DNA of 64,000 nucleotides from Phoenicibacter congonensis (GTDB lineage Bacteria; Actinomycetota; Coriobacteriia; Coriobacteriales; Eggerthellaceae), in the NCBI RefSeq assembly GCF_900169485.1, contig NZ_LT821227.1:1054001-1118000 (forward strand), given 5' to 3'. The notes beneath the pieces were generated by a model, which saw only the letters and a program-made list of their open reading frames with translations, did no database searches and was not told the origin of the DNA. Positions 5,004 through 37,696 of the stretch are shown here, one piece after another. A program made the position numbers and the translations under genes. Each line of letters opens with the position of its first letter. Position 1 is the first letter of the stretch.

Positions 5004-7835
5004 TTAGCCAAGAACATGTGCACAGCGAGGGCAAACGTCAGCGTGTTCACCTTCTCCGGAAAGTTCAGTGTAGTTCCAGCAGCGTGGGCATTTAGCCAAA
5101 TTTGTTCTATCAACTTTTGCAGTTGTTTCGTCAACGTTTTCGACAACAAACTCAACTTCAGCGCAAATCAAGAGGTCGGCAATGACGCTCTTGTCAAATT
5201 TTGCAGCTATGTTCATTTGTTCTTGGCTGAGCGTTACAGTCACTTTAGCTTCTTGACTTTTCTTTATCGTTCCATTGCCGCGAGCAACCTCAATTGCCTT
5301 AGTGGCAGCGTCGCGAATTTCAAACAATGTTTTAAAGTCGTCAAGGACCTCGTTTGCTTCATTTTCGGGAATTTCCGGCGTGAAATTCTTAGCATTAGGC
5401 CAACCAGCAAGCTGAACAGAGACTGGCCTTTCTTGTTCTTTTAGGCCTTCTGGCCAAAAGCCCCAAACTTCTTCTGTGGTAAAGCTCAAAATAGGACTTA
5501 GCACGCGCACAAGGACGTCTAACACATTTTCAAGAACTGTTTGAACAGCACGACGACGGGGTGAGTTAGCGGCTTCAGAATATAGGCGGTCTTTTGCGAC
5601 ATCCATGTATATTGCACTCAAGTCATTGTTTACAAATTCATAAAGTACACGATATACATAGTGGAATTTATAGTTTTCATATGCTTTGTTGACATCGTTT
5701 AAAACTTCTGCCAATTTTGCCATAACCCATTTGTCAATTGGCTCAAGATCGTCATAGGAAGTTACACGATCGGCAGGTGTAAAGTCGTCCAGGTTGCCAA
5801 GCAGGAAACGGAAAATGTTTCTGAACTTACGATAGGCATCTGAAGTGCGTTGCAAGATTGAGTCAGAGATGCTCACATCTTGAGAATAATCAACGCTTGA
5901 CACCCACATGCGCAAAACATCAGCACCAACTTTGTTCACAACTTCGCTTGGGTCCACACCATTTCCAAGCGATTTACTCATTTTGCGGCCTTTTTCATCG
6001 ACTGTAAAGCCACAGTGCATAACCGATTTGTATGGTGCTCGACCATATGCACCAACTGAAGTTAAAAGCGAAGATTGGAACCATCCACGATGCTGATCAG
6101 AACCTTCAAGATACATGTCGGCAGGCCATGTTAGGCCTTCGTTTGCACGATGTTTTAGAACAGAATCGTGGGACACTCCGCTTTCCCACCAAACATCCAG
6201 GATGTCTTTTTCAGGAATGAGCTCTTCACATCCACAGTGTTCACATTTAACTCCAGCTGGGAGATATTCACTTGGCTTCTTTGTAAACCAAGCATCGGCT
6301 CCCTCTGTGTTAAAGAGATTAATCACTGCATCAAATGTTTCCTCTGTGGCAATTGTTTCTCCGCATTTTGCGCACTTAAACACAGGGATAGGAACACCCC
6401 AGCTTCTTTGGCGAGAAATGCACCAGTCTGGTCTGTCTTCAACCATTGCACCAATTCTGTTTGAAGCCCATTCAGGAATCCATTTGACGTTGTTGTCAAT
6501 TTCATCCTTTGCTTTTTTGCGAAGGCCAGTCTTATCCATAGAAACAAACCATTGATCAGTAGCTCTAAAGATAACAGGCTCGTGACATCTCCAGCAATGA
6601 GGATAGCTGTGAGTGATGCTAACTTTTGCAACGAGAGTGCCCTGCTCTTCTAACCATTCAATAATTTTTGGATTTGAGTCATCAGTCGAAAGACCTGCGA
6701 ATTGACCTGCTTCTTCAGTCAAAATGCCATCATCATCAACTGGCATGAGAGTTGCAACTCCTTCAAATTGCGATGCAACAACATAGTCTTCGACGCCGTG
6801 TCCAGGGGCAGTGTGAACACATCCTGTGCCTGAGTCAAGCGTTACATGATCGCCATAAATGACTTTACCCTTCAAATCTTGACGGATTGGGCAAGTGTAT
6901 GTGAGACCGCAAAGAGAAACACCGTCGGTGGTTACAACTTCTCCATTTGAGTCTTTTGCAAGTGTATAACCTTTCCAGCCTGCGACTTCAGCAACTGTTT
7001 CAACAAGCTCTTTTGCCATGAGCATTGCCTTGTCTCCAAGAATAACCATGACGTATTCTGCTGTTGGTGCAAGGGAGACAGCTGTGTTTGCAGGAAGAGT
7101 CCAAGGAGTCGTGGTCCAAATCAGAACACAAGGTGTTTTGTCTTTTGCATCCGTTTCAGCAAATTGCTTTGGTGTTTCGTCCAAAACAAAATTTACATAA
7201 ATTGAAGGAGATGTCTCATCACCATATTCAATTTCGGCTTCTGCAAGAGCTGTGTGACAGCGGCTGCACCAGTGAATTGGCTTGCGTCCACGATAAATTG
7301 ATCCATCGAGGTACATTTTTTTGAAAATTTCAACATTTCCAGATTCGTAGTTTGGTGTAAATGTGAGATATGGATGATCCCAATCGGCGTTAACACCAAG
7401 GCGTTTAAAGCCTTCGCGTTGCAAGTCTACACATTTAACAGCCCAATCATGGCAAAGCGAGCGTACCTCTGATTGAGGCATGCTTTTCATTTTTTCTGTG
7501 CCCAACTGCTTTTCGATGATGTGCTCAATCGGTTGGCCGTGGCAATCCCAGCCGGGAACATATGGTGTGTAATAGCCACGCTGAGCATGTGACTTGATGA
7601 CAAAATCTTTGAGAATTTTATTAAATGCATGTCCAATGTGAATTGGTCCGTTTGCATACGGAGGTCCATCATGAAGAACAAAAGGCTCGCCGTCTTTGTT
7701 TTTCTCCAATACTTTTCCGTAAATGTCTTCCTCTTGCCACTTCTTCAAAATTTCTGGCTCGCGATGCGCTAGGTCTCCACGCATTGGAAAGTCAGTTTTA
7801 GGTAAATTCATCGTGTTTTTATAATTATCTGCCAT
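5004..7835 (-). CDS. ileS: Isoleucyl-tRNA synthetase
   Basis: A 943-residue class I synthetase that charges tRNA-Ile. The HIGH motif is in [12 protein letters not shown] and the KMSKS motif in [11 protein letters not shown]. The C-terminal zinc knuckle [10 protein letters not shown]...CPRC is typical of the bacterial eukaryote-unlike type. An upstream in-frame ATG exists at 7847, but the AGGAA Shine-Dalgarno overlaps it and fits the ATG at 7835. It heads the ileS-lspA-rluA-coaC-coaB row. The 5' region is only about 165 bp, and no T-box leader was recognised. Confidence 0.96.
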
Positions 7836-8928: not shown

Positions 8929-8957
8929 GCAGCCGTTTAAGCGCGGCTGCTTTTTTA
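8929..8957 (+). terminator. Intrinsic terminator after degV
   Basis: GCAGCCG (8929-8935) pairs with CGGCTGC (8944-8950) around an 8-nt loop and is followed by TTTTTT. This ends the first degV transcript and separates it from the second. Confidence 0.85.
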
Positions 8958-13474: not shown

Positions 13475-14662
13475 CTATTTAACGAGATCGTAGGTGTCTT
13501 TTGCAATCATAAACTCTTCGTCTGTTGGGATTACGAGAATCTTTACCTTAGAGTCATCTGCAGAAATAACGCGGTCGCCGCCAAAAGTGTTGTTCTTTTC
13601 TGGGTCGAGCTTAATTCCAAGTCCCTCAAGGCCTTCGAAGACCATCTTTCTCATGCGAACATCGTTTTCTCCAACACCTGCGGTGCAAGTGATAACATCA
13701 ACGCCGCCCATTGCAAATGTGTACATACCGATGTATTTCTTAATGATTGAAGATGCCATCTCATATGCAAGTTTTGCACGGTCATTGCCTTCATCGGCTG
13801 CTTTTGCAACATCACGTAAATCAGAAGAAACGCCACTGATTCCGAGGAATCCAGATTTTTTGTTGAGAACAGTATCCATCTCTTGTGGAGTTAATCCTTC
13901 CTTCTCTTCGAGGAAAGTGACAATAGAAGGGTCAATCGCGCCGCAGCGTGTTCCCATCATGAGACCATCAAGAGGTGTGAGACCCATTGAAGTGTCGATT
14001 GCAACTCCGCCCTTAACAGCGCTGCAAGATGCACCGTTGCCAATGTGGCATGTAACGATGTTGAGGTTCTTGATGTCCTCTCCAAGGAATTCAGCTGTTC
14101 TTTGAGCAACATAGCGGTGAGATGTGCCGTGGAATCCATATTTTCTTACTGCATATTTCTCATAGTACTCATATGGAATTGGGTACATGTAGGCTGAAGC
14201 TGGAAGTGTGTTGAAGAATGAAGTGTCAAATACTGCGACCATTGGTTTGCCAGGCATGAGTTTTTTGCATGCTTCAATTCCAATGAGGCCAGCACCATTG
14301 TGAAGTGGAGCAAGGCTCTTGAGTTCTTCTACGCGAGCAATGAGCTCATCATCGATGATTGCGCTTTGACCGTAGTATTTACCGCCATGAACAATTCTGT
14401 GTCCAACTGCACCAATTTCGTCGAGAGATTTTATAGGAGCACCTTTGCCGTTAACAAGAGAATCCAAAACGAGCTTGAGTGCTTCTGAGTGGTCGTTCAT
14501 AACAGGGTTTGAAGTGACCTTCTCATCGATGCCATATGAGAAAATTCCCTCTCCAAGGCCAATCTTCTCGCAAAGACCTTTTGCAAGGACTTCATGAGAT
14601 TCAACATCGATTAATTGGAACTTCATTGAAGAAGAACCAGCGTTAACAACTAAAATCTTCAT
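13475..14662 (-). CDS. ackA: Acetate kinase
   Basis: A 395-residue ASKHA-fold kinase that makes ATP from acetyl phosphate and ADP, releasing acetate. Motifs include NAGSSSMKF at the N-terminus (Asn7), VGHRIVHGG, FHGTSHRYVA, the nucleotide-binding HIGNGAS and TSMGLTPLDGLMMGTR. With pta it forms the acetate branch of fermentation and the main substrate-level ATP route. AAAGG is upstream of the ATG at 14662. The pta-ackA pair is split by glf and the GT2 gene here. Confidence 0.97.
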   Translation of the reverse strand: MKILVVNAGSSSMKFQLIDVESHEVLAKGLCEKIGLGEGIFSYGIDEKVTSNPVMNDHSEALKLVLDSLVNGKGAPIKSLDEIGAVGHRIVHGGKYYGQSAIIDDELIARVEELKSLAPLHNGAGLIGIEACKKLMPGKPMVAVFDTSFFNTLPASAYMYPIPYEYYEKYAVRKYGFHGTSHRYVAQRTAEFLGEDIKNLNIVTCHIGNGASCSAVKGGVAIDTSMGLTPLDGLMMGTRCGAIDPSIVTFLEEKEGLTPQEMDTVLNKKSGFLGISGVSSDLRDVAKAADEGNDRAKLAYEMASSIIKKYIGMYTFAMGGVDVITCTAGVGENDVRMRKMVFEGLEGLGIKLDPEKNNTFGGDRVISADDSKVKILVIPTDEEFMIAKDTYDLVK

Positions 14663-20277: not shown

Positions 20278-20313
20278 TAAGAAAACAGCCAGCTCAAATT
20301 GATGAACTGGCTG
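20278..20313 (-). terminator. Hairpin with T-rich tail between the two tRNA genes
   Basis: CAGCCAG (20286-20292) pairs with CTGGCTG (20307-20313) around a 14-nt loop. In the minus direction the stem is followed by TTTTCTT. It could attenuate transcription from tRNA-Gly into tRNA-Cys or act as a processing site. Confidence 0.5.
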
Positions 20314-23738: not shown

Positions 23739-25472
23739 CTAGTCTTTCAATGGTGAATGTTTACGATTAGCAGCATAGTCTTCAAGCTGCTGCTTGCTAA
23801 TCGTTTTTTCCTTATGTGTCTTAACGTCGCAAATTGTGACACGGTCAGTGCATGAATAGCAAGGATCCATTGACCCGATGATAACTGCAGCATCAGAAAC
23901 TGTGTTTCCTTGCAATGCATAACGCAAAACTGGCCAGTTTGAATATGTTGCAGCTTTTGCTCTCCAACGATATACCTTTTGGTTGTCGCCAGTCATAGAC
24001 CAGTGCATGTCTTCTCCACGAGGTGCTTCAGTAAAGCCCATTGCGAATTTACCTGGTTCATACTTGAAGTCTTGCGTAAGAATTGGACCACTTGGAAGAC
24101 CGTTCACGAGCTGCTCAATCATTGTTATTGAGTCAAGGAACTCACCAATTCTAACTGTCGTTCTACCTAAGACGTCACATGAATCGGCTGAGTGCGCTTT
24201 AAGTCCCTCAATGTATTTATATCCAGAGAATGGATGATCAAAACGAACATCACGAGCAAAACCAGAGCCACGAACCATAGGGCCAACAGGACTAAAATCA
24301 CGGCAAACTTTTCTGTCAAGATGGCCAACGCCTTTAGTTCTTGATTCAAAGTTTGGCGTTGTTGTCAACATGGAAACCAAACGTGTAACTTCTTCACGAA
24401 GCTCACCTACAAGTTTTAGCGTTGCTTTTCTGTGATCTTCAAGAATATCACGACGAACGCCACCAATGAGATTCATGCCATATGTCTTGCGAGCACCTGT
24501 GAGAAGCTGAGCCAAGTCCATAGCTTTCTCACGAACTCTGAAGAAGTGCATAAAACCTGTGTCAAAGCCACAATAGTGACAGACGAGACCAAGGTTGAGC
24601 AAGTGTGAGTGAAGTCTTTCAACTTCAAGGAAAATCGCTCTTAAATATTCTGCACGCTTTGGAATTTCGATTCCCATTGCATTTTCAATTGTTTGCACAT
24701 ATGCAACGCTGTGAGCAAAACCGCAAATTCCGCAAATTCTGTCTGACAAGAAAGGAATCTGATCATATGTCATGCGAGCTTCTGCAACCTTTTCCATGCC
24801 ACGATGTGCATAGAACAAGCGGTAGTCGGCGTCAACAATGTTTTCGCCTTCGCAGAACAAGCGGAAGTGACCTGGTTCGTCTGATGTGATGTGTAAAGGA
24901 CCCATTGGAATTTCTGTTGGATCTTCAACACCCGACTCGTCCAAAAACTCATAGTTTTCGACGTCAACGGCAGGTTCAGGACGATGGCGATAATCCATCG
25001 AGTCTTTTAACAGAGGATGAAGTCCGTCTGGCCAGTCGTCTGGCAAAACAAGGCGACGAGCGTCTGGAAGCCCAACTGCTTTTAGACCCATCATGTCGTA
25101 TGCTTCGCGCTCTGACCAAACACAAGCTGGAACGCGTGGTGTCACCGATGGAAACTCGCGCGTGATTGGGTCGACTTTAGTGCGAACTGTCAGATAGCAC
25201 TTGTCTTCCTCTTCCATGCTCATTAAATAGTAAAGACGGAAATAACCATTAAGGTGTCTTTCGTCGTTTACAACCATGTCTGGAATCCAGCCGCCGCGGT
25301 TGTAATACATAAACTCAACGCACTCAGGAAGTTTCTCAGTTGGAACATCAACTGTTACCTGGTCCTCAGTTTGCCAAGTGGCTTCCAGAACTGAACCTGG
25401 AATTGCCGCGGCCATTGCTTTAACGTGGCTCTCGCCACGACGCAACCCATTAGTTGAATTTGCCTCAGGCAT
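23739..25472 (-). CDS. hyfG: Group 4a [NiFe] hydrogenase large subunit (HyfG/HycE, NuoCD fusion)
   Basis: A 577-residue fusion of a NuoC-like N-terminal domain (to about residue 170) and a NuoD-like catalytic domain. The nickel ligands are in RICGICGF (about residue 240) and DPCYSCTDR. About 35 residues follow the second motif, the cleavable extension processed by HycI. It makes H2 from protons using formate-derived electrons. Two tandem ATGs occur behind GGAGG; the second (25472) has the better spacing. The 5' end overlaps the preceding ferredoxin gene's Shine-Dalgarno region. Confidence 0.95.
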   Translation of the reverse strand: MPEANSTNGLRRGESHVKAMAAAIPGSVLEATWQTEDQVTVDVPTEKLPECVEFMYYNRGGWIPDMVVNDERHLNGYFRLYYLMSMEEEDKCYLTVRTKVDPITREFPSVTPRVPACVWSEREAYDMMGLKAVGLPDARRLVLPDDWPDGLHPLLKDSMDYRHRPEPAVDVENYEFLDESGVEDPTEIPMGPLHITSDEPGHFRLFCEGENIVDADYRLFYAHRGMEKVAEARMTYDQIPFLSDRICGICGFAHSVAYVQTIENAMGIEIPKRAEYLRAIFLEVERLHSHLLNLGLVCHYCGFDTGFMHFFRVREKAMDLAQLLTGARKTYGMNLIGGVRRDILEDHRKATLKLVGELREEVTRLVSMLTTTPNFESRTKGVGHLDRKVCRDFSPVGPMVRGSGFARDVRFDHPFSGYKYIEGLKAHSADSCDVLGRTTVRIGEFLDSITMIEQLVNGLPSGPILTQDFKYEPGKFAMGFTEAPRGEDMHWSMTGDNQKVYRWRAKAATYSNWPVLRYALQGNTVSDAAVIIGSMDPCYSCTDRVTICDVKTHKEKTISKQQLEDYAANRKHSPLKD

Positions 25473-25494
25473 CATCTCACCTCCGTTTTGAAGA

Positions 25495-26130
25495 TTATTC
25501 ATAATCTTCCTTAACTTCCCTGACCTTAGTCAACGTTTCTTCAAAACGTGTAACTTTAGACCTAGTCACATTAATGACCTCGGTGGCTTTCGCCTCTTTC
25601 TTCATCTTTTCTTTCTTCTCAGCAGCGCCACTGAATTCTGTGACTAATGAGAGAGCCTTTGTGGGGCACACCGCAACGCAGTGCGGCCCCAGTTCAGGAT
25701 CATAGGCACAAAGATCGCATTTAACTGCACAAGTCGGAACGCCAATCTCCCACTTTAACATTGAGGATGTGCTCTCAGGCATGTTAGGGATGTTGTTGCA
25801 AATACCAGCGACCCCACCAATGCCAGTTCCAGATGGATGAATCGCTCCAAAAGGACAAACGCAAGCGCAAAGTTTGCAGCCAATGCAAGTCTGTTCATTT
25901 ACTTTAATTCTGTCGCCCTCATGAGTAATTGCATTTACAGGACAGACAGCCAAGCAAGGTGCTCCCTCGCAGTGATGACATGTGATGGAAGCAGTTACAT
26001 CCTTTGTAAAAACTACAGAAAGGCGTGGCTCTGCTTGCTCACCAACGCTCGCATGTCCAGCAGAACATGCAGCCTGGCAGGTCCCGCAGCCAATACACCT
26101 GTTGGTGTTTATCGATATGAATGAGTTCAT
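25495..26130 (-). CDS. hyfA: 4Fe-4S ferredoxin-type electron carrier (HyfA/HydN-like)
   Basis: A 211-residue protein with four cysteine motifs for [4Fe-4S] clusters: CIGCGTCQAAC, CHHCEGAPCLAVCP, CIGCKLCACVCP and CDLCAYD...HCVAVCP. The last 45 residues are charged (KKEKMKKEAK) and probably helical. It sits between fdhF and hyfG, so it likely carries electrons from formate dehydrogenase to the hydrogenase. A second similar protein is encoded on the other side of fdhF; which one contacts FdhF directly cannot be told. Confidence 0.9.
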   Translation of the reverse strand: MNSFISINTNRCIGCGTCQAACSAGHASVGEQAEPRLSVVFTKDVTASITCHHCEGAPCLAVCPVNAITHEGDRIKVNEQTCIGCKLCACVCPFGAIHPSGTGIGGVAGICNNIPNMPESTSSMLKWEIGVPTCAVKCDLCAYDPELGPHCVAVCPTKALSLVTEFSGAAEKKEKMKKEAKATEVINVTRSKVTRFEETLTKVREVKEDYE

Positions 26131-26194
26131 TTAAGTCCTCTTTCTAAATCGGTTTGGATAATACTAATTACTCAGATTCCAAACAGAAATCTAA

Positions 26195-28369
26195 CTATTT
26201 CACTCCCTGATATTGAGGAGCAGCTTCGTCGCGAAGTCTCTTCTTCAAGGATGTGTATTGTTCATCGAGGTATTTTTCAGCCCAGGTTTGGTCTTCAATA
26301 GCCTCAACTTGAACAGCACAATATTTGTCTTCAGGTGTATGTGAATTTGCGTCAACTTTATCCATTGTTAAGTCGTTACATTTTCCAATCCACCATTGAT
26401 ACGTCATGTAAACAGCTCCTGGCAAAACACGAGAATCTACGCTCGCACGTGTGATCACTTTTCCACGGCGTGAATAAATAAACATGAGCTGCTGGTCCTT
26501 GATGCCATATTTCTCGGCATCTTCAGGGCTGATTTGGCAAAAGCCTGGCTCATCAGCAAGACCAGCCAAAACTTTGCAGTTGCCAGTCATTGAACGACAT
26601 GAATAGTGTCCAACCTCACGTACAGTTGTGAGAACAAGTGGGTATTCATCATCAACGGGCTCGGTTGGTGGCACCCAATCGCAACTTAAGAGCTGCGCTT
26701 TTCCAGAAGGCGTAGTGAATGCACCTCCAAGGAACAGGTCAGGAGAACCCTTATGCTCAATTGTTGGAATTGGCCATTGAGCATGTCCACAGCCTTGCAT
26801 CTTTTCATATGTTGCACCATATGCTTTATCCCAAAGTGCACGACACTCTTGATCCCAAATCTCCTGAGTGTTGTTGTAGTGCATTGGGTAGCCCATTCTA
26901 GTTGACAGGTCTGCAATGATGTCCCAGTCGTGACGACATTCACCTTTTGGAGGAACAGCTGCACTGAAATATTGGAAAGTTCTGTCGCAAGCGGTGAAAA
27001 CGCCCTCATGCTCTCCCCAACTCGTAGCTGGTAACAAAACATCAGCTTCTGCGGCAGTTTGAGTCATAAAGATGTCTTGAACGATGAAGATATCGAGCTC
27101 CTTCAAACGCTCTTTGTAAACTTGAGCATCTGGCTCTGTTTGCAGTGGATCTTCACCCATGATGTAGTAGGCATGAATCTTGCCTTCATGTATGAGCTCT
27201 GGAACGTCGGTTACTTTATAGCCAGGTTCTGGGTCAATTGATCCAGGCTCTAAGCCCCATGCTTTCTCAAACTTTTCACGAATTGCAGGGTCTGTAACCT
27301 TTTGATAACCAGGGAACATGTTAGGCAAAGCACCCATGTCGCATGCACCTTGAACATTGTTTTGTCCACGAACAGGTGCAACACCAGAATTTGGTTTTCC
27401 AATCTGGCCTGTAATGCAAGCAATTGCTGCACACATGCGAACTGCTTCAACGTTTTGGAGGTGTTGGCAAACGCCCATGCCCCAACAAAGAATAGAAGAA
27501 GGTTCAGCAGTCGCGTAAATTCTTGCTGCCTCGTGAACAGCTTCAGGATCGCAACCCGTGAGTTCTGCAGTGTTTTCAGGAGTGTATTTCTTAACTGTCT
27601 CCCACCATTCATCAAAGTGCTCTGTGTGTTCTTCGACGAATTTCTTGTCCATGAGTCCTTGAGTAACAATTGAGTTAGCAAATGCATTTAAGAATGCAAT
27701 GTTTGTGCCAGCTTTAATTGGCAGATAGATATCAGCAATGCGTGATGTCTCAATAACTCTTGGGTCAGCAACAATAATCTTTGCACCCTTTTCTCTTGCG
27801 CGCAAAATTCTGCGAGCTACAAGTGGGTGTGATGTATTTGGATTGTATCCAAAAAGGAACAAGCATCCTGCGTCTTCCATACCTGGAACGCCGCAGCTCA
27901 TTGATCCAGCACCGAGTGTCTCCATAAGACCGAAGACAGTTGGCCCGTGTCAAGTGCGAGCGCAATTATCTACATTGTTGTTCCCAATGCAAGCACGTGC
28001 AAATTTTTGCATCACAAGGTTCGATTCGTTACCTGTGCCACGGGAAGAGCCAGTAACATAAATCGATTTTGGACCATACTTTTTCTTGGCAGCCAAAAGC
28101 TTCTCAGCACAAAAATCAAGTGCCTCATCCCAGGTCACTCTTTGAAATGGCTTGCCACGCTCTGGGCGGATCATCGGGTAAAGGATACGAGGTGTCAAGA
28201 TTCCGGTGTCATTAATGAAGTCGTATCCATGCCATCCTTTAAGACAAAGGAAACCTTCATTAGTCAGACCAGGGAGTGGTTCAGCGCCAACAACTTGGTC
28301 GCCTTCAACAAGGAGGTTGAATTTACATCCAGTGCCACAATAAGGGCAAACTACCATATGTTTTTCCAT
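26195..28369 (-). CDS. fdhF: Formate dehydrogenase H, selenocysteine-containing catalytic subunit
   Basis: A 724-residue molybdopterin enzyme read through an in-frame TGA at 27950-27952. It oxidises formate to CO2. The [4Fe-4S] ligands C8, C11, C15 and C42 and K44 sit exactly where they do in E. coli FdhF, and the TGA is codon 140, the same position as the E. coli selenocysteine, in NCART-U-HGP with the following histidine kept. A SECIS-like hairpin follows the TGA. The ATG at 28369 has AGGAAG upstream. Complete selA, selB, selD and tRNA-Sec genes lie 8 kb away. Reading it as two genes or a frameshift would break the molybdopterin domain. Confidence 0.97.
27918..27952 (-). promoter_or_regulatory. 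Bacterial SECIS element and Sec UGA codon in fdhF
   Basis: The UGA is followed by 12 bases, then GUCUUC (27937-27932) pairs with GGAGAC (27923-27918). The 8-nt apical loop GGUCUUAU contains GGUCU, the same motif as the E. coli fdhF SECIS loop bound by SelB. Pairing includes one G-U wobble. Confidence 0.9.
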
Positions 28370-28391
28370 TGTATTCACTTCCTTTCTGTCT

Positions 28392-28940
28392 TTAAGCAAC
28401 AGCGCCATAGACTGGAAGTGAAGAATGAGCTTCTAGTCTCTTGGCTTCTTGTTGGAACTTATCTTTTCTGTCTGCCATCATCTCGTCGCGATCTACGAGT
28501 CTTAATGCCTTTGTTGGACAGGCTTCAACGCACGCAGGACCATTCTCTCGGTCATAGCAAAGGTCGCACTTTACCAAAAATGATTTCTTTGCTCCTGAAA
28601 CTGGAATGCCTCCAAGCATTTGAACATTGTCGACTGGAACAACCTCAACAGCTCCAAATGGACATGCCTGAACGCAGTTGCGGCAACCAATGCATCTTTG
28701 CTGACGGATAGCCACACGGTCGCCATCATAATAGAGTGCTCCTTCAGGGCATGCATTTACACATGCAGCGTCAGCGCAGTGATGACAAGCGATAGGTGCA
28801 GATACCGTGAGCGTTTGCACGACATTTAAACGTGCTTTTGACAAATCGCCAGGCACGTCATGTTTGTTCATGCATCCTGCCATGCAGGTTTGGCAGGAAA
28901 TGCAAAGACCAGGGTCTGCTTGAACAAATTGTCCGCTCAT
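28392..28940 (-). CDS. hycB: 4Fe-4S ferredoxin-type subunit (HycB/HydN-like), FdhF partner
   Basis: A 182-residue protein with four [4Fe-4S] motifs: CISCQTCMAGC, CHHCADAACVNACP, CIGCRNCVQACP and CDLCYDR...CVEACP. It lies 22 bp upstream of fdhF and is the natural candidate for the HycB-type subunit that takes electrons from FdhF. It resembles the HyfA-like protein in this operon, but the two are clearly separate. GGAGGAATT precedes the ATG. A palindrome lies 27 bp upstream of the start. Confidence 0.88.
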   Translation of the reverse strand: MSGQFVQADPGLCISCQTCMAGCMNKHDVPGDLSKARLNVVQTLTVSAPIACHHCADAACVNACPEGALYYDGDRVAIRQQRCIGCRNCVQACPFGAVEVVPVDNVQMLGGIPVSGAKKSFLVKCDLCYDRENGPACVEACPTKALRLVDRDEMMADRKDKFQQEAKRLEAHSSLPVYGAVA

Positions 28941-28966
28941 AATTCCTCCTTCACTTTCTTTACTCC

Positions 28967-28987
28967 TGTGAGAATTAAATTCTCACA
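28967..28987 (-). promoter_or_regulatory. Intercistronic palindrome between hyfF and hycB
   Basis: TGTGAGAATT and AATTCTCACA are separated by one base (10-bp arms). As RNA it would form an 8-bp hairpin with a 5-nt loop and no T tail, just upstream of the hycB ribosome site. It also overlaps a possible promoter (TTGTTT, 16 bp, TTTAAT). It could be an operator, a processing site or an mRNA stabiliser. Confidence 0.5.
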
Positions 28988-29024
28988 AACCCTCAAAACA
29001 AGTTAATGCAGCCTTTACCCTACA

Positions 29025-30578
29025 TTAACCCTCGGTTGCTGCGAAAACATCTTTAAACAAAGGTGCTTCGTGCAACACATCTGTGTCTGTCTGCAGAACG
29101 GTCGCTGTAGCAGACTCAATCCCGTTTAATACTGGTTGAGGCATAGCTACGCCGAACCAGAGGATTACGATAACCATGGCGAATTCTGGAATCAATGCGA
29201 AGGCTCCAACATCGCCTTTCTTTACAGTTGTAGGGGGTTCGCCAAACACAGATCCTGTGACAACATGAACGCATGCAGCAATGACAACGGTCAATGCCAC
29301 TCCAAACAGAACAACCAAAACGATGTGTCCTGAAACTACTCCTGAGATAAATGCCATTATTTCAGATAAGAACATTGCAAATGGTGGGAAACCGGCGAGT
29401 GCGAAGAAGCCGATTGCCATCAAAATTGCAGTTGCAGGTGCGACTTTCAAAATGCCTGAAATCTTATTCAAATCACGAGTTCCATATTTCATGAGGACGT
29501 TGCCTGAAATGCAGAACAGGAGCGCTTTGGTAAAGCCGTGAGTTACACAGTGCAACAGAGCTGCAGCAATTCCTAGTGGACCACCAAAGCCAAGGCAAAG
29601 GGCAACAATTCCAATGTTTTCACATGAGTGGTATGCAAGTTTTCTCTTCAAGTCGTCTTGAGCAAAAACCGCAAATGCAGCAACGCCAACGCTCAGCGCG
29701 CCAAGAATGAGCATTAAAAGCTGTGGGAAGAATGTTCCGACTGCTTGGATGCAGAGAATGTAAAAACGAATGATGATGAGCATTGCACACTTCAGTAAAA
29801 CGCCCGAAAGCAAAGCTGACACTGGCGAAGGTGCTTCTGAGTGAGCGTCTGGCAACCAAGTGTGCATTGGGAAAAGACCAGCCTTTGTGCCAAAGCCAAT
29901 AGCTGCAAAAACAAAAGCAATTTGAATCAACATTCCATCAAACTGTTTAGCAATTGGAACTAATGAAGTCCAGAAAACAGCTTGATGAGGATCGCTCATA
30001 ATTGAAGCTGCATCTGCATAAATGAGCACTGTGCCATAAAGTCCAAACGCAACACCAGCTGTGCAAACTATCACATATTTCCAAGAGGCTTCCAAGGTTG
30101 TTTTTTGGTTGTAACAACCAACCAGGAATACTGTTGATAATGTTGTTGCCTCAATTGCAACCCACATCAAAATGATGTTGTTTGAAAGAACAACCAAAAG
30201 CATTGAGAAAACAAACAAGCTAAAGAATGCATAGTAGGACTTCACTTGCCCAGGCCCAACATTTCCAATTTCAATGTCGTGGCGCACATATGGAATCGAA
30301 TACCAACCTGTCAGGAATCCAATCACACCAATTAAGGCTAAGAAAATCATTCCTAAACCATCGAGGTGGAACCAAATCCCGACTGCATCAATCGAATTTC
30401 CTGTTGAGCCAACTTGAACTACGAGGAGAATGGCCATGACAAGGACAGCCGTAACGCTAGCAAAATGGATAACCTCATAGGCGACTTTTGGAGTTGACTT
30501 CGATGGGAGAAAAGCAATCAGAACAGCCGCAACAAGCGGAACAACCATGATTGCAATCATAAGTGTTGAATAATCCAT
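29025..30578 (-). CDS. hyfF: Hydrogenase antiporter-like membrane subunit HyfF
   Basis: A 517-residue polytopic membrane protein of the NuoL/M/N (Mrp antiporter) family, close in length to E. coli HyfF (526). It shows about 14 hydrophobic segments, the WVAIEATTLSTVFLVG segment with the key glutamate, the lysine in GTKAGLFPMHTWLPDAHSEAPSPVSALLSG, and KLAYHSCENIG. It probably moves protons or sodium ions coupled to formate-driven H2 production. Confidence 0.93.
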   Translation of the reverse strand: MDYSTLMIAIMVVPLVAAVLIAFLPSKSTPKVAYEVIHFASVTAVLVMAILLVVQVGSTGNSIDAVGIWFHLDGLGMIFLALIGVIGFLTGWYSIPYVRHDIEIGNVGPGQVKSYYAFFSLFVFSMLLVVLSNNIILMWVAIEATTLSTVFLVGCYNQKTTLEASWKYVIVCTAGVAFGLYGTVLIYADAASIMSDPHQAVFWTSLVPIAKQFDGMLIQIAFVFAAIGFGTKAGLFPMHTWLPDAHSEAPSPVSALLSGVLLKCAMLIIIRFYILCIQAVGTFFPQLLMLILGALSVGVAAFAVFAQDDLKRKLAYHSCENIGIVALCLGFGGPLGIAAALLHCVTHGFTKALLFCISGNVLMKYGTRDLNKISGILKVAPATAILMAIGFFALAGFPPFAMFLSEIMAFISGVVSGHIVLVVLFGVALTVVIAACVHVVTGSVFGEPPTTVKKGDVGAFALIPEFAMVIVILWFGVAMPQPVLNGIESATATVLQTDTDVLHEAPLFKDVFAATEG

Positions 30579-30587
30579 GTTTATCCC

Positions 30588-31241
30588 CTATCCCTTCAAT
30601 TCCATTAACTCGTCAGAATTCATTGTGTTTACCTTTTTGTACACACGGTAAACAATAATTGCCATGATTACGACAGCGAAAATCGCGTCGGTTGCAATAC
30701 CAATTTCGACAAGCTCTGGAGCCTGTGGGGCAAGCAAAGCTAGTGTTAAGTGTGAACCATTCTCCATTAAGCAATAACCAAACATTTGTTTCACAATGTT
30801 TCTTTGTGAAATGATGCATGTCAGACCAATAAAGAAGTGTGCCAGAGAAACAGCAAGAGCTGGTAAAACTTCTGTTGTGGTTGGAAGCTTGATGTATTGA
30901 ACAATGAGATAGCAAATTGCGACTTCAACAACTGCAAGAATCACAGTGACAATTGGTTTTACCAAAGGTTCAATCTTTTCATCGGGGTTGCCCATCTTCT
31001 TCAATGTGAAAAGAACAACAGCAGGCACAAAAATTACTTTTGTAAAGAAAGCAGTTCCTGACCAGGTAAACAACTCTGTTGAACCAGTAGTTACACCCAA
31101 TGCAATGAAGATCCCAACTAAAACAAGTGATTGCACCCCATATGCATAGGCAGTGCTTTTTGGTGACTTCATCAAAATCACGATTAGAGACGTGAGGATG
31201 AGAAAGCAACCAAGTACGTTTACTAGTGCGTATCCGCTCAT
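30588..31241 (-). CDS. hyfE: Hydrogenase membrane subunit HyfE (NuoK-like region)
   Basis: A 217-residue protein with about seven transmembrane segments, matching E. coli HyfE (216). It is found only in Hyf-type complexes and is thought to link the antiporter-like subunits. The ATG at 31241 is preceded by AGGGGG; an in-frame TTG at 31259 would overlap the end of hyfD. Confidence 0.88.
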   Translation of the reverse strand: MSGYALVNVLGCFLILTSLIVILMKSPKSTAYAYGVQSLVLVGIFIALGVTTGSTELFTWSGTAFFTKVIFVPAVVLFTLKKMGNPDEKIEPLVKPIVTVILAVVEVAICYLIVQYIKLPTTTEVLPALAVSLAHFFIGLTCIISQRNIVKQMFGYCLMENGSHLTLALLAPQAPELVEIGIATDAIFAVVIMAIIVYRVYKKVNTMNSDELMELKG

Positions 31242-31251
31242 GAAAGACCCC

Positions 31252-32700
31252 CTATCCAATCCAAGAAGCTGCTATAAAGCTTGAGCAGACTGTCATTATG
31301 ATCAACACCACAAAAGCGATAACCATGTAAACTGGAAGCTTTTGCGATTTTTCAACAACTTCTGAAGGCTCGCCTGGAAGAACTTGACCCATCCATTTGA
31401 GAAACCAAGCAAAGCATCCAACAGTTTCAATCAGGAAAACAACAACGATTAGCATCAAAAGCCAATTGCCTTGTGCAGCTTCAAATGAACCTGCAATGAT
31501 TGAGAACTTTGAGAAAAATCCGTTAAATGGAGGACATCCTGCAATAGCAAGAGCAGCGCATCCAAAGCCTACTGCAAGAAGTGGTTGTTTCTTTATGACA
31601 CCTTTAATTTGTGGAAGCATTCTCGTTCCCATTGTGTAGCTAAAAGCGCCAGCTACCAAGAAGAAGAGAGTCTTTGCAAATGCATGGTTGAAAATGTGTT
31701 GGACACCACCATTGAAAGCCATTTGTGAACCAAAAACGAAGAAACCAAAGCCCAAGAAGATGTAGGACAACTGAGAAATTGTTGAGAATGCAAGCAGTCT
31801 CTTCATGTCTTTTTGTGGCAGATACATTATGAATGAGAAAATCATTGTCGCAATTGCACCGATAACAATAACCCAGCCAACGGGCTCAGGAATGACTCCT
31901 GCGCTCATCAGACATCTTGCCAAAACAGCTACACCAACTTTAACCATTGATGCACCATGGAGATACGCCGAAACTGGCGTTGGAGCCTCCATGGCAGATG
32001 GCAACCACATGTAGAAAGGCAGTTGGGCTGATTTACCCCAAGCAGCGATGATTACACAAACAAGAACGAACGTTTTCCAATAATCATCAAGGCTTGCAAT
32101 TGCTGTCACTTCAAGAGTTCCAGTTTGTAGATACAAACAACCTGCTGCAATATAGAGTCCAAGAGCACCAATGTGAGTCAAAATTAGAGCTTTCATTGCT
32201 GCTTTTTGAGCAGTAGGTGTGCCATAGTAACCAATTAAAGCCCAAGAACAAGCTCCTGTAATCTCAAAGAAAATGAGCTGCGAAAGGATTGTGTTTGAAT
32301 AAACAAGACCAGCCATTGCTCCAATAAACACTGTAAAGAAAGCATAGAAGCGCCGACGCGGAACATCAGGATGTTCACGGTTCTTATCGTTCATGTAACC
32401 GACAGAGTAAATTGAAATAATGAGACCAATTCCAACAAAGCATGGAGCAAGCATTACGCTCACCTTATCGAAGATGAACGAAATGATTGTTGCATCTCCC
32501 AGAGCAGCAATCGTGAGTGTTTGTGTTTCAGCGCCGTTGCTTGCAAGAGTTACCCAAACTCCAATTGTTAAGCAAGTCGAAACTGCTGCTGCAGCAATGC
32601 ACAGCCATTTTGCGCATTTCTGAGGGCAGACAACGATGATAAAGGCAACGATAAATGGAACAAGTATCGATGCAATGGACATTATTGATAAACTAGCCAT
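31252..32700 (-). CDS. hyfD: Hydrogenase antiporter-like membrane subunit HyfD
   Basis: A 482-residue NuoL/M-family protein (E. coli HyfD 479) with about 14 transmembrane segments. The glutamate helix reads SQLIFFEITGACSWALIGYY, and the lysine helix AAWGKSAQLPFYMWLPSAMEAPTPVSAYLHG carries the typical proline breaks. One of three antiporter-like subunits, with HyfB and HyfF, which distinguish this complex from the simpler Hyc (FHL-1) type that has one. Confidence 0.92.
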   Translation of the reverse strand: MASLSIMSIASILVPFIVAFIIVVCPQKCAKWLCIAAAAVSTCLTIGVWVTLASNGAETQTLTIAALGDATIISFIFDKVSVMLAPCFVGIGLIISIYSVGYMNDKNREHPDVPRRRFYAFFTVFIGAMAGLVYSNTILSQLIFFEITGACSWALIGYYGTPTAQKAAMKALILTHIGALGLYIAAGCLYLQTGTLEVTAIASLDDYWKTFVLVCVIIAAWGKSAQLPFYMWLPSAMEAPTPVSAYLHGASMVKVGVAVLARCLMSAGVIPEPVGWVIVIGAIATMIFSFIMYLPQKDMKRLLAFSTISQLSYIFLGFGFFVFGSQMAFNGGVQHIFNHAFAKTLFFLVAGAFSYTMGTRMLPQIKGVIKKQPLLAVGFGCAALAIAGCPPFNGFFSKFSIIAGSFEAAQGNWLLMLIVVVFLIETVGCFAWFLKWMGQVLPGEPSEVVEKSQKLPVYMVIAFVVLIIMTVCSSFIAASWIG

Positions 32701-32712
32701 CGTTGATCCCCC

Positions 32713-33642
32713 TTAAATTCCCAAAATGCAGAGCAAGAAGCCACAAGCCGAAAGGCCAACGATTGCCCACGTTTTGGTTCCCAAAAACTTATATCTAACT
32801 CTGATGAGTGCATTTTCAATAACACCGCAAATCAGGAAGAAAACGCCAACTTTAACGAACCAGACCACAAGTCCGATTAGAAGAGAAACAATGCTAGCAT
32901 CCATAGCGCTTCCCCATGGAATGAAGATTGCAAGGAACCATGAAACAACGATAATTTGCTTCATTGACATTCCCATCTTCATGAGTGCAAGTGAAGGTCC
33001 AGAATATTCTGCAAGAGGTCCCTCTTGAATCTCCTGTTCCGCTTCAGCCATATCAAAAGGAACTTTACCAAGCTCAACATAACAAGCTGCAGCGAAAGCA
33101 ACACCCGCAACAATAACGCCAATTGGACTAATCACAAACAGGTTTGAAATCATGTAGCCCATGCCACCAAGATATGTTGTTCCTGTTGCCAGAGCAACTA
33201 CAACTAAAGACAACATCATTGCTGGTTCGACTAATACGCCAACAAGCAGCTCACGAACACCGCCAAGTCCTGCATAGGTGTCACCTGAGTCAATCGATGC
33301 AAGCGAGAAGAAGAAACGCGATAACGCAAGCAAGTAAACCACCAAGATGACATCACCAAGCGCTGGAATTGGTGAATAAGTTGTAATCATTGGCACACCA
33401 ACAGCTAAAACAAGCATTGTAGCGAAGAAAAGTATTGGTGTGATGCGATGAACAAAACTTGATTCTTCTGAATGAACATCTTCACGCTTGAAGAGTTTTG
33501 CAATGTCATAGTAGTCTTGCAAAATGCTTGGTCCACGTCTGGAGTGCATCTTGGCACGAAGCCATCTTGAAGTGCCTGAAACTAGAGGAGCAATCAGGAC
33601 AACAAGTAAGGCTTGAACTATGGCAATTAAAATGCTAATCAT
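32713..33642 (-). CDS. hyfC: Hydrogenase membrane anchor subunit HyfC/HycD (NuoH-like)
   Basis: A 309-residue protein with about eight transmembrane segments. The loop RAKMHSRRGPSILQDYYDIAKLF and the segment ELGKVPFDMAEAEQEIQEGPLAEYSG are the NuoH signature that contacts the hydrogenase module. It couples electron transfer in the peripheral arm to ion movement. It ends 12 bp before hyfD. Confidence 0.94.
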   Translation of the reverse strand: MISILIAIVQALLVVLIAPLVSGTSRWLRAKMHSRRGPSILQDYYDIAKLFKREDVHSEESSFVHRITPILFFATMLVLAVGVPMITTYSPIPALGDVILVVYLLALSRFFFSLASIDSGDTYAGLGGVRELLVGVLVEPAMMLSLVVVALATGTTYLGGMGYMISNLFVISPIGVIVAGVAFAAACYVELGKVPFDMAEAEQEIQEGPLAEYSGPSLALMKMGMSMKQIIVVSWFLAIFIPWGSAMDASIVSLLIGLVVWFVKVGVFFLICGVIENALIRVRYKFLGTKTWAIVGLSACGFLLCILGI

Positions 33643-33657
33643 AATCCTTTAACCCCC

Positions 33658-35667
33658 TTAGTTAAGACCCACGGCCATTGCCAAGAAGACAACAAGCGCG
33701 ACAACAATGTAGATAACATAAATTCTGAAGTTACCATGTTCTATCTTTTGAGCTTGCTTTCCAACCCAAGAGATAAATGCAGCAACTGCATCAACAATGT
33801 ATTTATCGCCAACAGTTTCAGCTTTTTGCGCACCATGAACTGTTGCATTAAAGAAATTGGTGAACTTAGTAGAAGTCGAAGTAATCGCTGTTCTGGCTGC
33901 ATAGATTGGCTTTAGGAACATTTGCACCTCAGCTCCCACTGTCCCAGCTGTAATAGCCATTCCAGTTTCTGTGTTGTAACCACAAGACCATGGTTCGCGA
34001 TCGCATGAAACTTTCGACTTTGAAAATGCCATCTTAAATGCAAGAACAAGCAGGACAAACGAAATGAGAAGAATTGCTACAAGAGGTGTTGAGACAACTG
34101 ACCCAATAACTGGATTTACAACCCATGTGCCATATGAAGTAATGATGTTCATTTGGCCCAGCGTTGAAGCTGCAATTCCTTCCATAATTGGAGCCACGAA
34201 CGGCGCACCCAAACCAAGGCAAACGCAAACAACTGCTAAAACAATCATCGCGATTGTCATTGGAACAGGAACCTCTTTTGCATTGGCAGCCTGATCTGAA
34301 CGTGGGCGACCTAAGAAAGTCACTCCATAGCACTTAACGAAACAAGTTACCGCCAATGCGCCCGTGATTGCAAGAGCAACAGTTGCAAAAGCTGCAAAAA
34401 TCTTAATAACTAAATCTCCTGCCATTGCAGTCGTTATCATTGACTGGTAGGTAAACCATTCTGAAACAAAGCCGTTCAAAGGAGGTATTGCAGAAATTGC
34501 AAGTGATCCAAGCAAAAAGCACACACCTGTAATTGGCATCACTTTTTGAAGGCCACCAAGAATCTGCATATTTCTTGTTCCTGTTGAGAAAAGTACTGAA
34601 CCTGCACCAAGGAATAAAAGCCCTTTAAACATTGCATGATTCAAAAGGTGATAGAAGCCCGCCATAAAACCAAGCGCTGCGAGTACCGGTTGGTTAACAG
34701 CAACTCCCATAAATCCAATGCCGACACCAAGAAGAATAATTCCGATGTTTTCTACTGAGTGGTAGGCAAGAAGTTTTTTAATGTCGTGTTCAGCTAAAGC
34801 ATAGGCAACACCGAGAACTGAAGAAAGAGCGCCAATTGTGAGAACTACAAGACCCCACCAAAGTTGCACCTCAGATCCTTGAAGAAGGTCAATTCCAACT
34901 TTTACTATGCCGAAGACGCCGATTTTAATCATGCCACCTGACATCAAAGCTGAAACGTTTGAAGGAGCAGCAGGATGTGCTTGTGGCAGCCATGAATGGA
35001 ATGGGAACATGCCAGCCTTGCAACCAAATCCAAAGAATGCAAGCATGAACACAAGAGATGCAATTCCGGGATCAAACGAAGCAGCCCTAAATGCTGCAAA
35101 GTCAAGACTTCCTGTGATTCCTCCCATGATAAGGAATGAAATCATAATCATCAAGAATCCAATGTGAGCCATGATTAAGTAAAGGAAGCCACCACGAATT
35201 GATTGTTTATTCTGTTCAACAATTACTAGGAAGTAAGATGTGAGCGACATCAGTTCGAAGAAAACCAAGAACCAAAAGGCGTTATCAACGGTGAGAACCA
35301 TGTTCATTGAAACTATGAACAAATTCATAAAGAAGCCGATTGAACCCATCCCGTGACCATGATATTCATCGAAGTAGGAGAAGCCATAAATCCAGGCGAC
35401 CAAAGCTAGCAAGTTAATTACAACCAGCAGCAGGCCAGACAAAGGATTCAGTATCACCGTAAAGTTTGCAAAAGCAAACGGTGTTGTGAATGACGCGATT
35501 GCCGTTGGGGCAAAAATACCAGCTATGCCAGCACCGATTGCAAAGCATGCTGAAACAATGCCAAATATGCAAGCCAAAGTTTTAGAAGCAGACTCTGCCT
35601 TACTTATTAGGATTGCAACAATTGCGCCCACAACAGAAATCCCAGCCGAGATGAAGAGCATTTCCAT
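33658..35667 (-). CDS. hyfB: Hydrogenase antiporter-like membrane subunit HyfB/HycC
   Basis: A 669-residue NuoL-like protein, nearly the same length as E. coli HyfB (672), with about 16 transmembrane segments. The glutamate helix is in FLVFFELMSLTSYFLV and the lysine helix in GCKAGMFPFHSWLPQAHPAAPSNVSALMSGG; a long C-terminal helical region follows. First gene of the operon. The ATG at 35667 has AGGTGG upstream; the in-frame GTG at 35676 overlaps that site. Confidence 0.94.
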   Translation of the reverse strand: MEMLFISAGISVVGAIVAILISKAESASKTLACIFGIVSACFAIGAGIAGIFAPTAIASFTTPFAFANFTVILNPLSGLLLVVINLLALVAWIYGFSYFDEYHGHGMGSIGFFMNLFIVSMNMVLTVDNAFWFLVFFELMSLTSYFLVIVEQNKQSIRGGFLYLIMAHIGFLMIMISFLIMGGITGSLDFAAFRAASFDPGIASLVFMLAFFGFGCKAGMFPFHSWLPQAHPAAPSNVSALMSGGMIKIGVFGIVKVGIDLLQGSEVQLWWGLVVLTIGALSSVLGVAYALAEHDIKKLLAYHSVENIGIILLGVGIGFMGVAVNQPVLAALGFMAGFYHLLNHAMFKGLLFLGAGSVLFSTGTRNMQILGGLQKVMPITGVCFLLGSLAISAIPPLNGFVSEWFTYQSMITTAMAGDLVIKIFAAFATVALAITGALAVTCFVKCYGVTFLGRPRSDQAANAKEVPVPMTIAMIVLAVVCVCLGLGAPFVAPIMEGIAASTLGQMNIITSYGTWVVNPVIGSVVSTPLVAILLISFVLLVLAFKMAFSKSKVSCDREPWSCGYNTETGMAITAGTVGAEVQMFLKPIYAARTAITSTSTKFTNFFNATVHGAQKAETVGDKYIVDAVAAFISWVGKQAQKIEHGNFRIYVIYIVVALVVFLAMAVGLN

Positions 35668-35889
35668 TGCTACCACCTTTCCTGTACTTTAATAAGACTC
35701 ACAGAAAAAGAACAGAGAGAATCACTCTCTGAAACTTCAAAATAACGGATTAAAAGATTTTTCAATTGAGAATTGCGATGAGTCTTTGACCCAGCAGATA
35801 GCCCAAACAAAGAACATCTATTTAAACAGTCGGGAAACACAGATAACCCCGTCCCAATATATATACTCCTAATCCCTGTCGCAATTATA
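35668..35889 (-). promoter_or_regulatory. Putative promoter and structured leader of the hyf operon with attenuator-like hairpin
   Basis: A TATAAT box at 35884-35889 (minus strand, weak -35) would give a leader of about 200 nt. Near its end CAGAGAG (35731-35725) pairs with CTCTCTG (35719-35713), followed by TTCTTTTTCT, which looks like an intrinsic terminator 45 bp before hyfB. A perfect 8-nt complementary pair, AAGACTCA/TGAGTCTT (35786-35779 with 35701-35694), encloses that hairpin. This suggests regulated read-through; no known riboswitch class was recognised. Confidence 0.55.
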
Positions 35890-36166: not shown

Positions 36167-37696
36167 ATGAAGAAAACAGCGGATACCGAAAAAGCTACAG
36201 TAACAAAAATGGTTACTGAGAAGAGCTCTAAAAACGCGATTAAAGGAAATAAATTAAATGAAATGCTCAGAGGTCTTCCTCAAGTTGATGAGGTAATGAG
36301 TAATTCTAACATCACTACTTTAAGACATGCTTTAGCTCACGACTTTTTAAAAACCGCTGTTCGTGATATCTTAGATGAAATTCGTGAAGACATTAAAGCT
36401 GGTGTTTCTGATGAATACACAATTCCAACAACTGACGAGATTGCACACAAAAGTTGTGTTCACGCATTGCAGTTAATCAAACCATCTTTGCGACATGTAG
36501 TTAATGCAAGCGGCGTTATTATCCACACAAACCTAGGAAGAAGCCCCCTTTGCGACGAAGCAATTAAGGCGGTCAATGATGTTTCACGAGGCTATTCCAC
36601 TCTTGAGTATTCAACAAAAACTATGTCACGAGGTTCAAGGCATGCGCACATTGAACAGTTGATTTGCACTTTAACTGGAGCTGAAGCGGCAATTGCAGTT
36701 AACAACAATGCAGCTGCTGTGATGATGGTTTTAAATGAGTTTGCAAAAGGATATGAAGCTATCGTGTCTCGCGGTGAACTCGTAGAAATCGGTGGGTCAT
36801 TTCGCGTGCCGGACATTATGGCGATGTCAAACGCAAGAATGATTGAAGTTGGAACAACAAACAAAACACATGTTTCCGACTACGAAAACAACATTAACGA
36901 AAACACAGCCATGCTTCTTAAAGTACATCCATCTAACTACCGCATGGAGGGCTTTGTAGAAGATGTGTCAATTAAAGATTTGCAGAAAATTGCCACAGCC
37001 GAAAATAAAAGAAGAAAAGTTGCAGGGCAAAAAAATAAAGTCATTGTTTATGAAGACCAAGGATCTGGCGTCTTGATTGAAGATGATTTCTTCAAGAAAA
37101 ATGGCGAGCACACAATAACAGATGCACTAAAACTTGGCGTTGATATAGTTAGCTTTTCAGGTGATAAACTTTTGGGTGGTCCTCAAGCTGGAATTATTGT
37201 GGGCAGAAAAGAGTTTATTGATCGCTTGAAAAAGAACCCTCTTGCTCGTGCCCTACGTCTAGATAAAATGACACTAGCTGCGCTTGAAGCCACATTGCGA
37301 ACCTATTTAAATGAAGATGAGGCTCGCAAAAAAATCCCTACGTTAAGAATGCTCACTGAAGATTCTTCCTTAACGAAAAAACGTGCAGAAAAACTAAATA
37401 AAGCATTCCAAAAAGAAATTAACTCTGATGATGTTACTTTTAAAGTGATTGAAGAAATATCAAGAGCTGGCGGCGGAAGTCTTCCAATGTGCGACATTAA
37501 AACCTACTGCGTGCGCGCAAGTTTCACTAAAGGTAATGCCGAGGCAGCTGATAAATATTTAATACAAGAATGCGAACCACCAATTATTTCAAGATTAACT
37601 AAAGAATGTTTGTACTTTGATGCAAGAACGCTAGAAGAGTCTGACTTTCCTTTACTAGTTAATGGGGTTAAAGAATATCTATCAAAGGTTAAATAG
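36167..37696 (+). CDS. selA: L-seryl-tRNA(Sec) selenium transferase
   Basis: A 509-residue PLP enzyme that converts seryl-tRNA(Sec) to selenocysteyl-tRNA(Sec) using selenophosphate. The PLP lysine is K334 in SFSGDKLLGGPQAG; the conserved VVNASGVIIHTNLGRSPL and GYSTLEYS blocks are present. It is about 45 residues longer than E. coli SelA, mainly from a lysine-rich N-terminal tail. It lies head-to-head with the hyf operon, 3 bp upstream of selB. Confidence 0.96.
   Translation: MKKTADTEKATVTKMVTEKSSKNAIKGNKLNEMLRGLPQVDEVMSNSNITTLRHALAHDFLKTAVRDILDEIREDIKAGVSDEYTIPTTDEIAHKSCVHALQLIKPSLRHVVNASGVIIHTNLGRSPLCDEAIKAVNDVSRGYSTLEYSTKTMSRGSRHAHIEQLICTLTGAEAAIAVNNNAAAVMMVLNEFAKGYEAIVSRGELVEIGGSFRVPDIMAMSNARMIEVGTTNKTHVSDYENNINENTAMLLKVHPSNYRMEGFVEDVSIKDLQKIATAENKRRKVAGQKNKVIVYEDQGSGVLIEDDFFKKNGEHTITDALKLGVDIVSFSGDKLLGGPQAGIIVGRKEFIDRLKKNPLARALRLDKMTLAALEATLRTYLNEDEARKKIPTLRMLTEDSSLTKKRAEKLNKAFQKEINSDDVTFKVIEEISRAGGGSLPMCDIKTYCVRASFTKGNAEAADKYLIQECEPPIISRLTKECLYFDARTLEESDFPLLVNGVKEYLSKVK

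Follow-up and report, generated by a model that had tools for sequence, protein, structure and literature searches.

Leader terminators and the hyf operons of described systems

In E. coli, RNA ends within 5' leaders are common, according to PMC7815308, and the intrinsic (Rho-independent) terminators found in such leaders consist of a hairpin and a U-rich tract ahead of the first gene. The leader of hyfB that we describe here has a hairpin and a U-rich tract in this position and, if the presumed promoter lies upstream of them, would share the layout. It differs from the E. coli leader terminators in that its stem is weaker than most of the terminator-like sites in the sampled part of its own genome, in that no signal or alternative fold is known for it, and in that it is predicted from sequence. 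The operon that follows is of the Hydrogenase-4 / FHL-2 type with a selenium-dependent formate dehydrogenase, like the hyf operons of E. coli and P. atrosepticum, which are controlled by HyfR, a relative of the formate-sensing activator FhlA (PMC7384014). The terms 'terminator' and 'attenuat' are absent from the main text of that paper, and no title or abstract opening among those returned by searches of the open-licence PMC literature treats a terminator in a hyf leader. Riboswitch and T-box leaders, as collected in Rfam, are likewise structured leaders with a terminator, but no such family was found at threshold in the DNA analysed here or in 280 kb of its own genome. If termination ahead of hyfB is real and conditional, the leader RNA would be a control point for hyf operons besides the FhlA/HyfR-type activators; its present value is modest, namely, that of a single testable hairpin.

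The DNA analysed (hereafter, the window) is a 64-kb part of the 1.45-Mb genome of an Eggerthellaceae-type actinobacterium (C1, 1054001-1118000). On its minus strand, hyfB (hydrogenase 4 subunit B; 33658..35676; NF005086, 733 bits vs. a cut-off of 667) heads an operon with the order hyfB-C-D-E-F-hydN-fdhF-hyfA-hyfG and onwards, in which the genes other than hyfB were named by similarity and position (0 of the 5 scanned reach a curated cut-off). The fdhF gene is interrupted by an in-frame TGA at 27952-27950, and the hairpin after this TGA was called SECIS-like. Divergent from hyfB, the segment 36167-40935 holds selA (36167..37696, plus strand; TIGR00474, 544 bits vs. 268), selB, selD and tRNA-Sec, with selB and selD named by eye. 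The hyfB-selA intergenic region comprises 490 bp with 32% G+C. Translation of hyfB could start at ATG 35667 or at GTG 35676, which the open frame also permits; the ATG is probably better suited to the ribosome-binding stretch AGGAAAGG.

The hairpin ahead of hyfB and its expected frequency

We identified a 7-bp terminator-like hairpin (CAGAGAG-TGATT-CTCTCTG) at 35713..35731 on the minus strand and, directly 3' of it, a T-rich tail (TTCTTTTTCT; 35703..35712, minus strand) with 7 T in 8 bases. The hairpin has a predicted energy of -9.1 kcal/mol and pairing probabilities of 0.96-0.996 in a fold of the 250-nt leader (at least 0.96 throughout), and it is present in the minimum-energy leader folds made; together with the adjoining tail, it has the form of an intrinsic terminator, that is, a short stable hairpin followed by a U-rich tract. 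The tail is strand-specific, being T-rich in the hyfB direction only, and the opposite strand runs on as AAACTTCAAAA. The hairpin is oriented towards hyfB, with 45 nt between its end and ATG 35667. The sequence-only reading had placed such a hairpin and T-rich run 45 nt ahead of hyfB, with no upstream gene to terminate, and both points hold: the letters are present at 35731-35713 (-), and the intergenic region contains no gene on the same strand upstream of the leader, selA (36167, +) being divergent.

Tentatively, we take the hyf leader to carry a weak intrinsic terminator, formed by the hairpin and T-run, that may cause partial, perhaps conditional, attenuation. The letters, the predicted stability, the non-randomness within the region, the orientation and the lack of a preceding same-strand gene are all consistent with this reading. 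RNA polymerase would start upstream, perhaps near 35890-35850, would partly stop at about 35705, and would partly read on into hyfB. Against it stand the weak predicted energy, the chance level over the whole window, the absence of a comparable hairpin from the hydN leaders of relatives and of a further copy from the genome at up to 1 mismatch, and the lack of a clear promoter (all below).

The hairpin is rarely reproduced by the composition of its surroundings. When a site had to show 7 or more Watson-Crick pairs, no fewer than 4 G-C pairs and 6 or more T in 8 bases, dinucleotide shuffling yielded one in 1 of 2000 replicates of the 490-bp intergenic region and in 0 of 2000 replicates of the 213-nt leader; when G-U pairs were permitted, the counts were 4/2000 and 3/2000, respectively. 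Across both strands of the 64-kb window, there are 2 such sites vs. a mean of 0.28 in 60 shuffles, and the second one, at 8929, is located after a gene. A chance origin of the hairpin is unlikely, though not extremely so with the whole window counted, because one or more such sites turned up in 10 of the 60 shuffled windows. The corresponding alternative, namely, a chance hairpin in fast-changing intergenic DNA that plays no role in termination, ranks second after the weak terminator but appears to us somewhat improbable: these shuffled windows, the weakness of the stem and the comparison with relatives (below) speak for it, whereas the shuffles of the intergenic region itself, the confinement of the T-run to one strand and the position in a leader speak against it.

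Terminators are expected after a same-strand gene. In a genome background sample of 384 kb (the window plus 16 stretches of 20 kb; one G-U pair allowed), we identified 21 terminator-like sites, of which 12 lay between genes as called by a simple longest-frame gene caller, 11 of these 3' of a same-strand gene. By the classes that this caller defines, 7 sites were in co-directional gaps, 4 followed a gene whose neighbour is convergent, 1 was between opposite-strand genes, 5 were antisense to called frames and the remaining 4 lay within a called frame of the same strand. The leader hairpin falls in the last class because a 75-codon frame was called over it; a site at 14413 of stretch L137 lies between two genes and was put in the coding class through a long start call, and the other members are a site of L146 in or before a gene and one of L143 in a frame that continues beyond the end of its stretch. 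One of the 5 antisense sites lies between two tRNA genes, and both L142 and L147 contribute two sites that are the two strands of one hairpin. The leader hairpin is the only one of the 21 recognised in a leader without a preceding gene (the caller counted 32 divergent intergenic regions longer than 60 bp in the 384 kb), and by energy it is the second weakest, with only one of the 20 others below it in stability.

Because the hairpin is a perfect 7-bp inverted repeat ahead of an operon, it could also be a DNA operator, bound by a dimeric regulator. The whole genome contains no further copy at up to 1 mismatch, and the 4 further sites at 2 mismatches compare with 3 for a reversed control pattern, which makes an operator highly improbable.

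Two other hairpins were noted in the background sample. Between tRNA-Gly and tRNA-Cys in the window, a strong terminator-like hairpin (20286-20313, minus strand) has 11 pairs and -18.5 kcal/mol. In L146, a 12-bp hairpin with a T-rich tail (7337-7368, minus strand) is located close to the 5' end of a frame preceded by two others which we take, from their translations, to be KH-domain-like and rpsP-like; this hairpin is possibly an internal terminator in a ribosomal operon.

Reading frames, alternative folds and switching in the leader

Candidate promoter letters occur at 35856..35889 on the minus strand, either as TATAAT at 35889-35884, picked by eye, or as TTGCGA-17-TATATT at 35884-35856; promoter-like matches in a 1-kb scan numbered 1 vs. 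2.9 in shuffles, which is not better than chance. The 75-codon open frame that spans the hairpin (35897-35670, minus strand) has a counterpart of at least 74 codons in 2.6% of shuffled regions. Its codon score of -0.374 bits per codon is like that of non-coding frames and falls between the 5% and 1% quantiles (-0.195 and -0.681) of 597 real gene pieces. Given this low score, and with the other two frames of the strand also negative, we rejected the hairpin as coding sequence. A frame on the opposite strand scores 0.23 vs. a 99% value of 0.121 for spurious frames, and it was not taken for a gene because three stops break it. A SECIS-like role was also rejected, the leader hairpin being unlike, by eye, the one after the fdhF UGA.

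The hyfB ribosome-binding region (ACAGGAAAGGTG; 35674..35685, minus strand) pairs with the U-run in the leader fold, such that AGGAAAGG lies in a stem with an unpaired probability of at most 0.09. This pairing would fit an mRNA 5' feature in which the U-run pairs with the ribosome-binding site of hyfB, while the hairpin restricts translation or shields the end of the mRNA. However, 51 of 500 shuffles gave a stem as good, pairing comes easily to U-rich and purine-rich stretches, and we consider this explanation very unlikely.

The hairpin had further been described as lying inside a larger stem formed by a perfect 8-nt pair. The complementary letters exist, with the 5' half AAGACTCA at 35779..35786 and the 3' half TGAGTCTT at 35694..35701 (both minus strand), but when the flanks were shuffled separately, a pair of at least 8 arose in 8.1% of 3000 trials (P 0.08), and each of its base pairs has a probability of 0.0001 in the 250-nt leader fold. 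The pair does form in an isolated 93-nt piece. Being at chance level and improbable in the leader fold, the pair is judged to be due to chance, and the larger stem is therefore unsupported. Moreover, an 8-nt stem nested around the hairpin would not switch it and so would have no antiterminator action. The case is a caution that, in AT-rich leaders, chance produces 8-nt complements around a hairpin.

The same reading saw in this arrangement a regulated leader, with formate, molybdopterin, nickel or selenium as sensible riboswitch signals. Comparison of the leader with RNA family models, including the Moco and NiCo classes, gave no covariance-model match. At threshold, the only Rfam matches were three tRNAs in the 64-kb window, with no riboswitch or T-box family, and eight tRNAs in 280 kb of the own genome (14 of the 16 stretches), with no leader element; nor was a leader element found in 10 of the 11 hyf loci of relatives (L132 left out). 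A relaxed search of 801 bases (E up to 5) returned a single snoRNA match (16.8 bits, E 4.1, gathering score 37), which is a chance match. We also found no antiterminator above chance that would compete with the terminator: the best partner in the upstream leader was equalled in 350 of 500 shuffles for the 5' arm of the hairpin, in 76 for its 3' arm and in 287 for the ribosome-binding region. The attenuator-like interpretation thus stands in part, in that the hairpin is non-random for its region, is oriented towards hyfB and is plausible as a terminator, and falls in part, with no competing structure above chance for switching; the regulated layout and the four proposed signals find no support in these comparisons.

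A conditional attenuator or riboswitch, in which a ligand, a protein or a leader peptide chooses between the terminator and an alternative fold, is therefore unlikely, and ligand switching through an alternative structure is not supported. In its favour, the leader belongs to the operon of a costly Ni/Mo/Se enzyme, the whole-leader fold is more stable than expected (z = -2.2; 7 of 200 shuffles equally stable), and an 11-codon frame starts at TTG 35857 with AGGAG 8 nt before it. However, this frame, the only one with a ribosome-binding motif in the scan for leader peptides, contains no run of one kind of regulatory codon and stops ~90 nt from the hairpin.

Relatives and the re-ordered operon

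A search with the leader DNA against 297 genomes drawn from the order returned, apart from the own genome, a single match of 30 bases in G040. Among 138 genomes of the family, 35 (counting the own genome) matched at E up to 1, and the foreign matches were short, covering about 16-40 bases, the best of them with E 0.04 over 20 bases. Within the genus, the only other genome compared, G001, has an assembly gap at the leader, with contig C272 ending just inside the hyfB 3' end and contig C3 beginning about 290 nt before selA, and the alignment of the intergenic region to it is limited to about the last 95 bp before selA. The lack of a trace among the relatives searched and this short alignment are the comparative points in favour of a chance hairpin.

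In 72 of 73 other hyfB loci, which take in proteobacteria and some genomes also counted under our G handles, hyfA is found immediately ahead of hyfB or reaching into its start: the hyfA match ends at most 400 nt upstream in 67 and overlaps the start by a few bases in 5 (including L098, a fragment labelled Acidobacteriota), and one locus has too little upstream sequence. The hyfB matches of G034 and G018, on short contigs, were left out of further comparison. All 11 relatives examined have the gene order hydN-fdhF-hyfA-hyfB. By contrast, in the window (23739-35676, minus strand) and in G001, which has hyfC-D-E-F-hydN-fdhF-hyfA, the operon is re-ordered, and the placement of hydN-fdhF-hyfA behind hyfF in the genus makes hyfB the first gene of the operon, divergent from selA. 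In G023, selA is divergent from hydN, which suggests that the selA-hyf divergence predates the re-ordering. None of the hydN leaders at the operon fronts of the 11 relatives contained a hairpin with 6 bp or more and 5 or more T in 8 bases; the scan reached 700 nt upstream for 10 of the loci and 344 nt for L128 (the hydN start of L124 is probably misplaced). That the new hyfB leader gained, upon re-ordering in the genus, a conditional terminator governing how much the entire formate hydrogenlyase operon is expressed would be a broader reading of the weak terminator, and we regard it as distinctly unlikely.

Inverted repeats were observed at all three borders of the re-ordered block, possibly by coincidence. 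Besides the leader hairpin, these are a perfect 9-bp inverted repeat across the hyfA/hyfG overlap (25490-25509), which is not conserved in G001, and, immediately ahead of the ribosome-binding site of hydN (28967-28987), a perfect 10-bp palindrome, TGTGAGAATT-N-AATTCTCACA, which is not in the matching gap of G001 and has no second copy in the genome when up to 3 mismatches are allowed.
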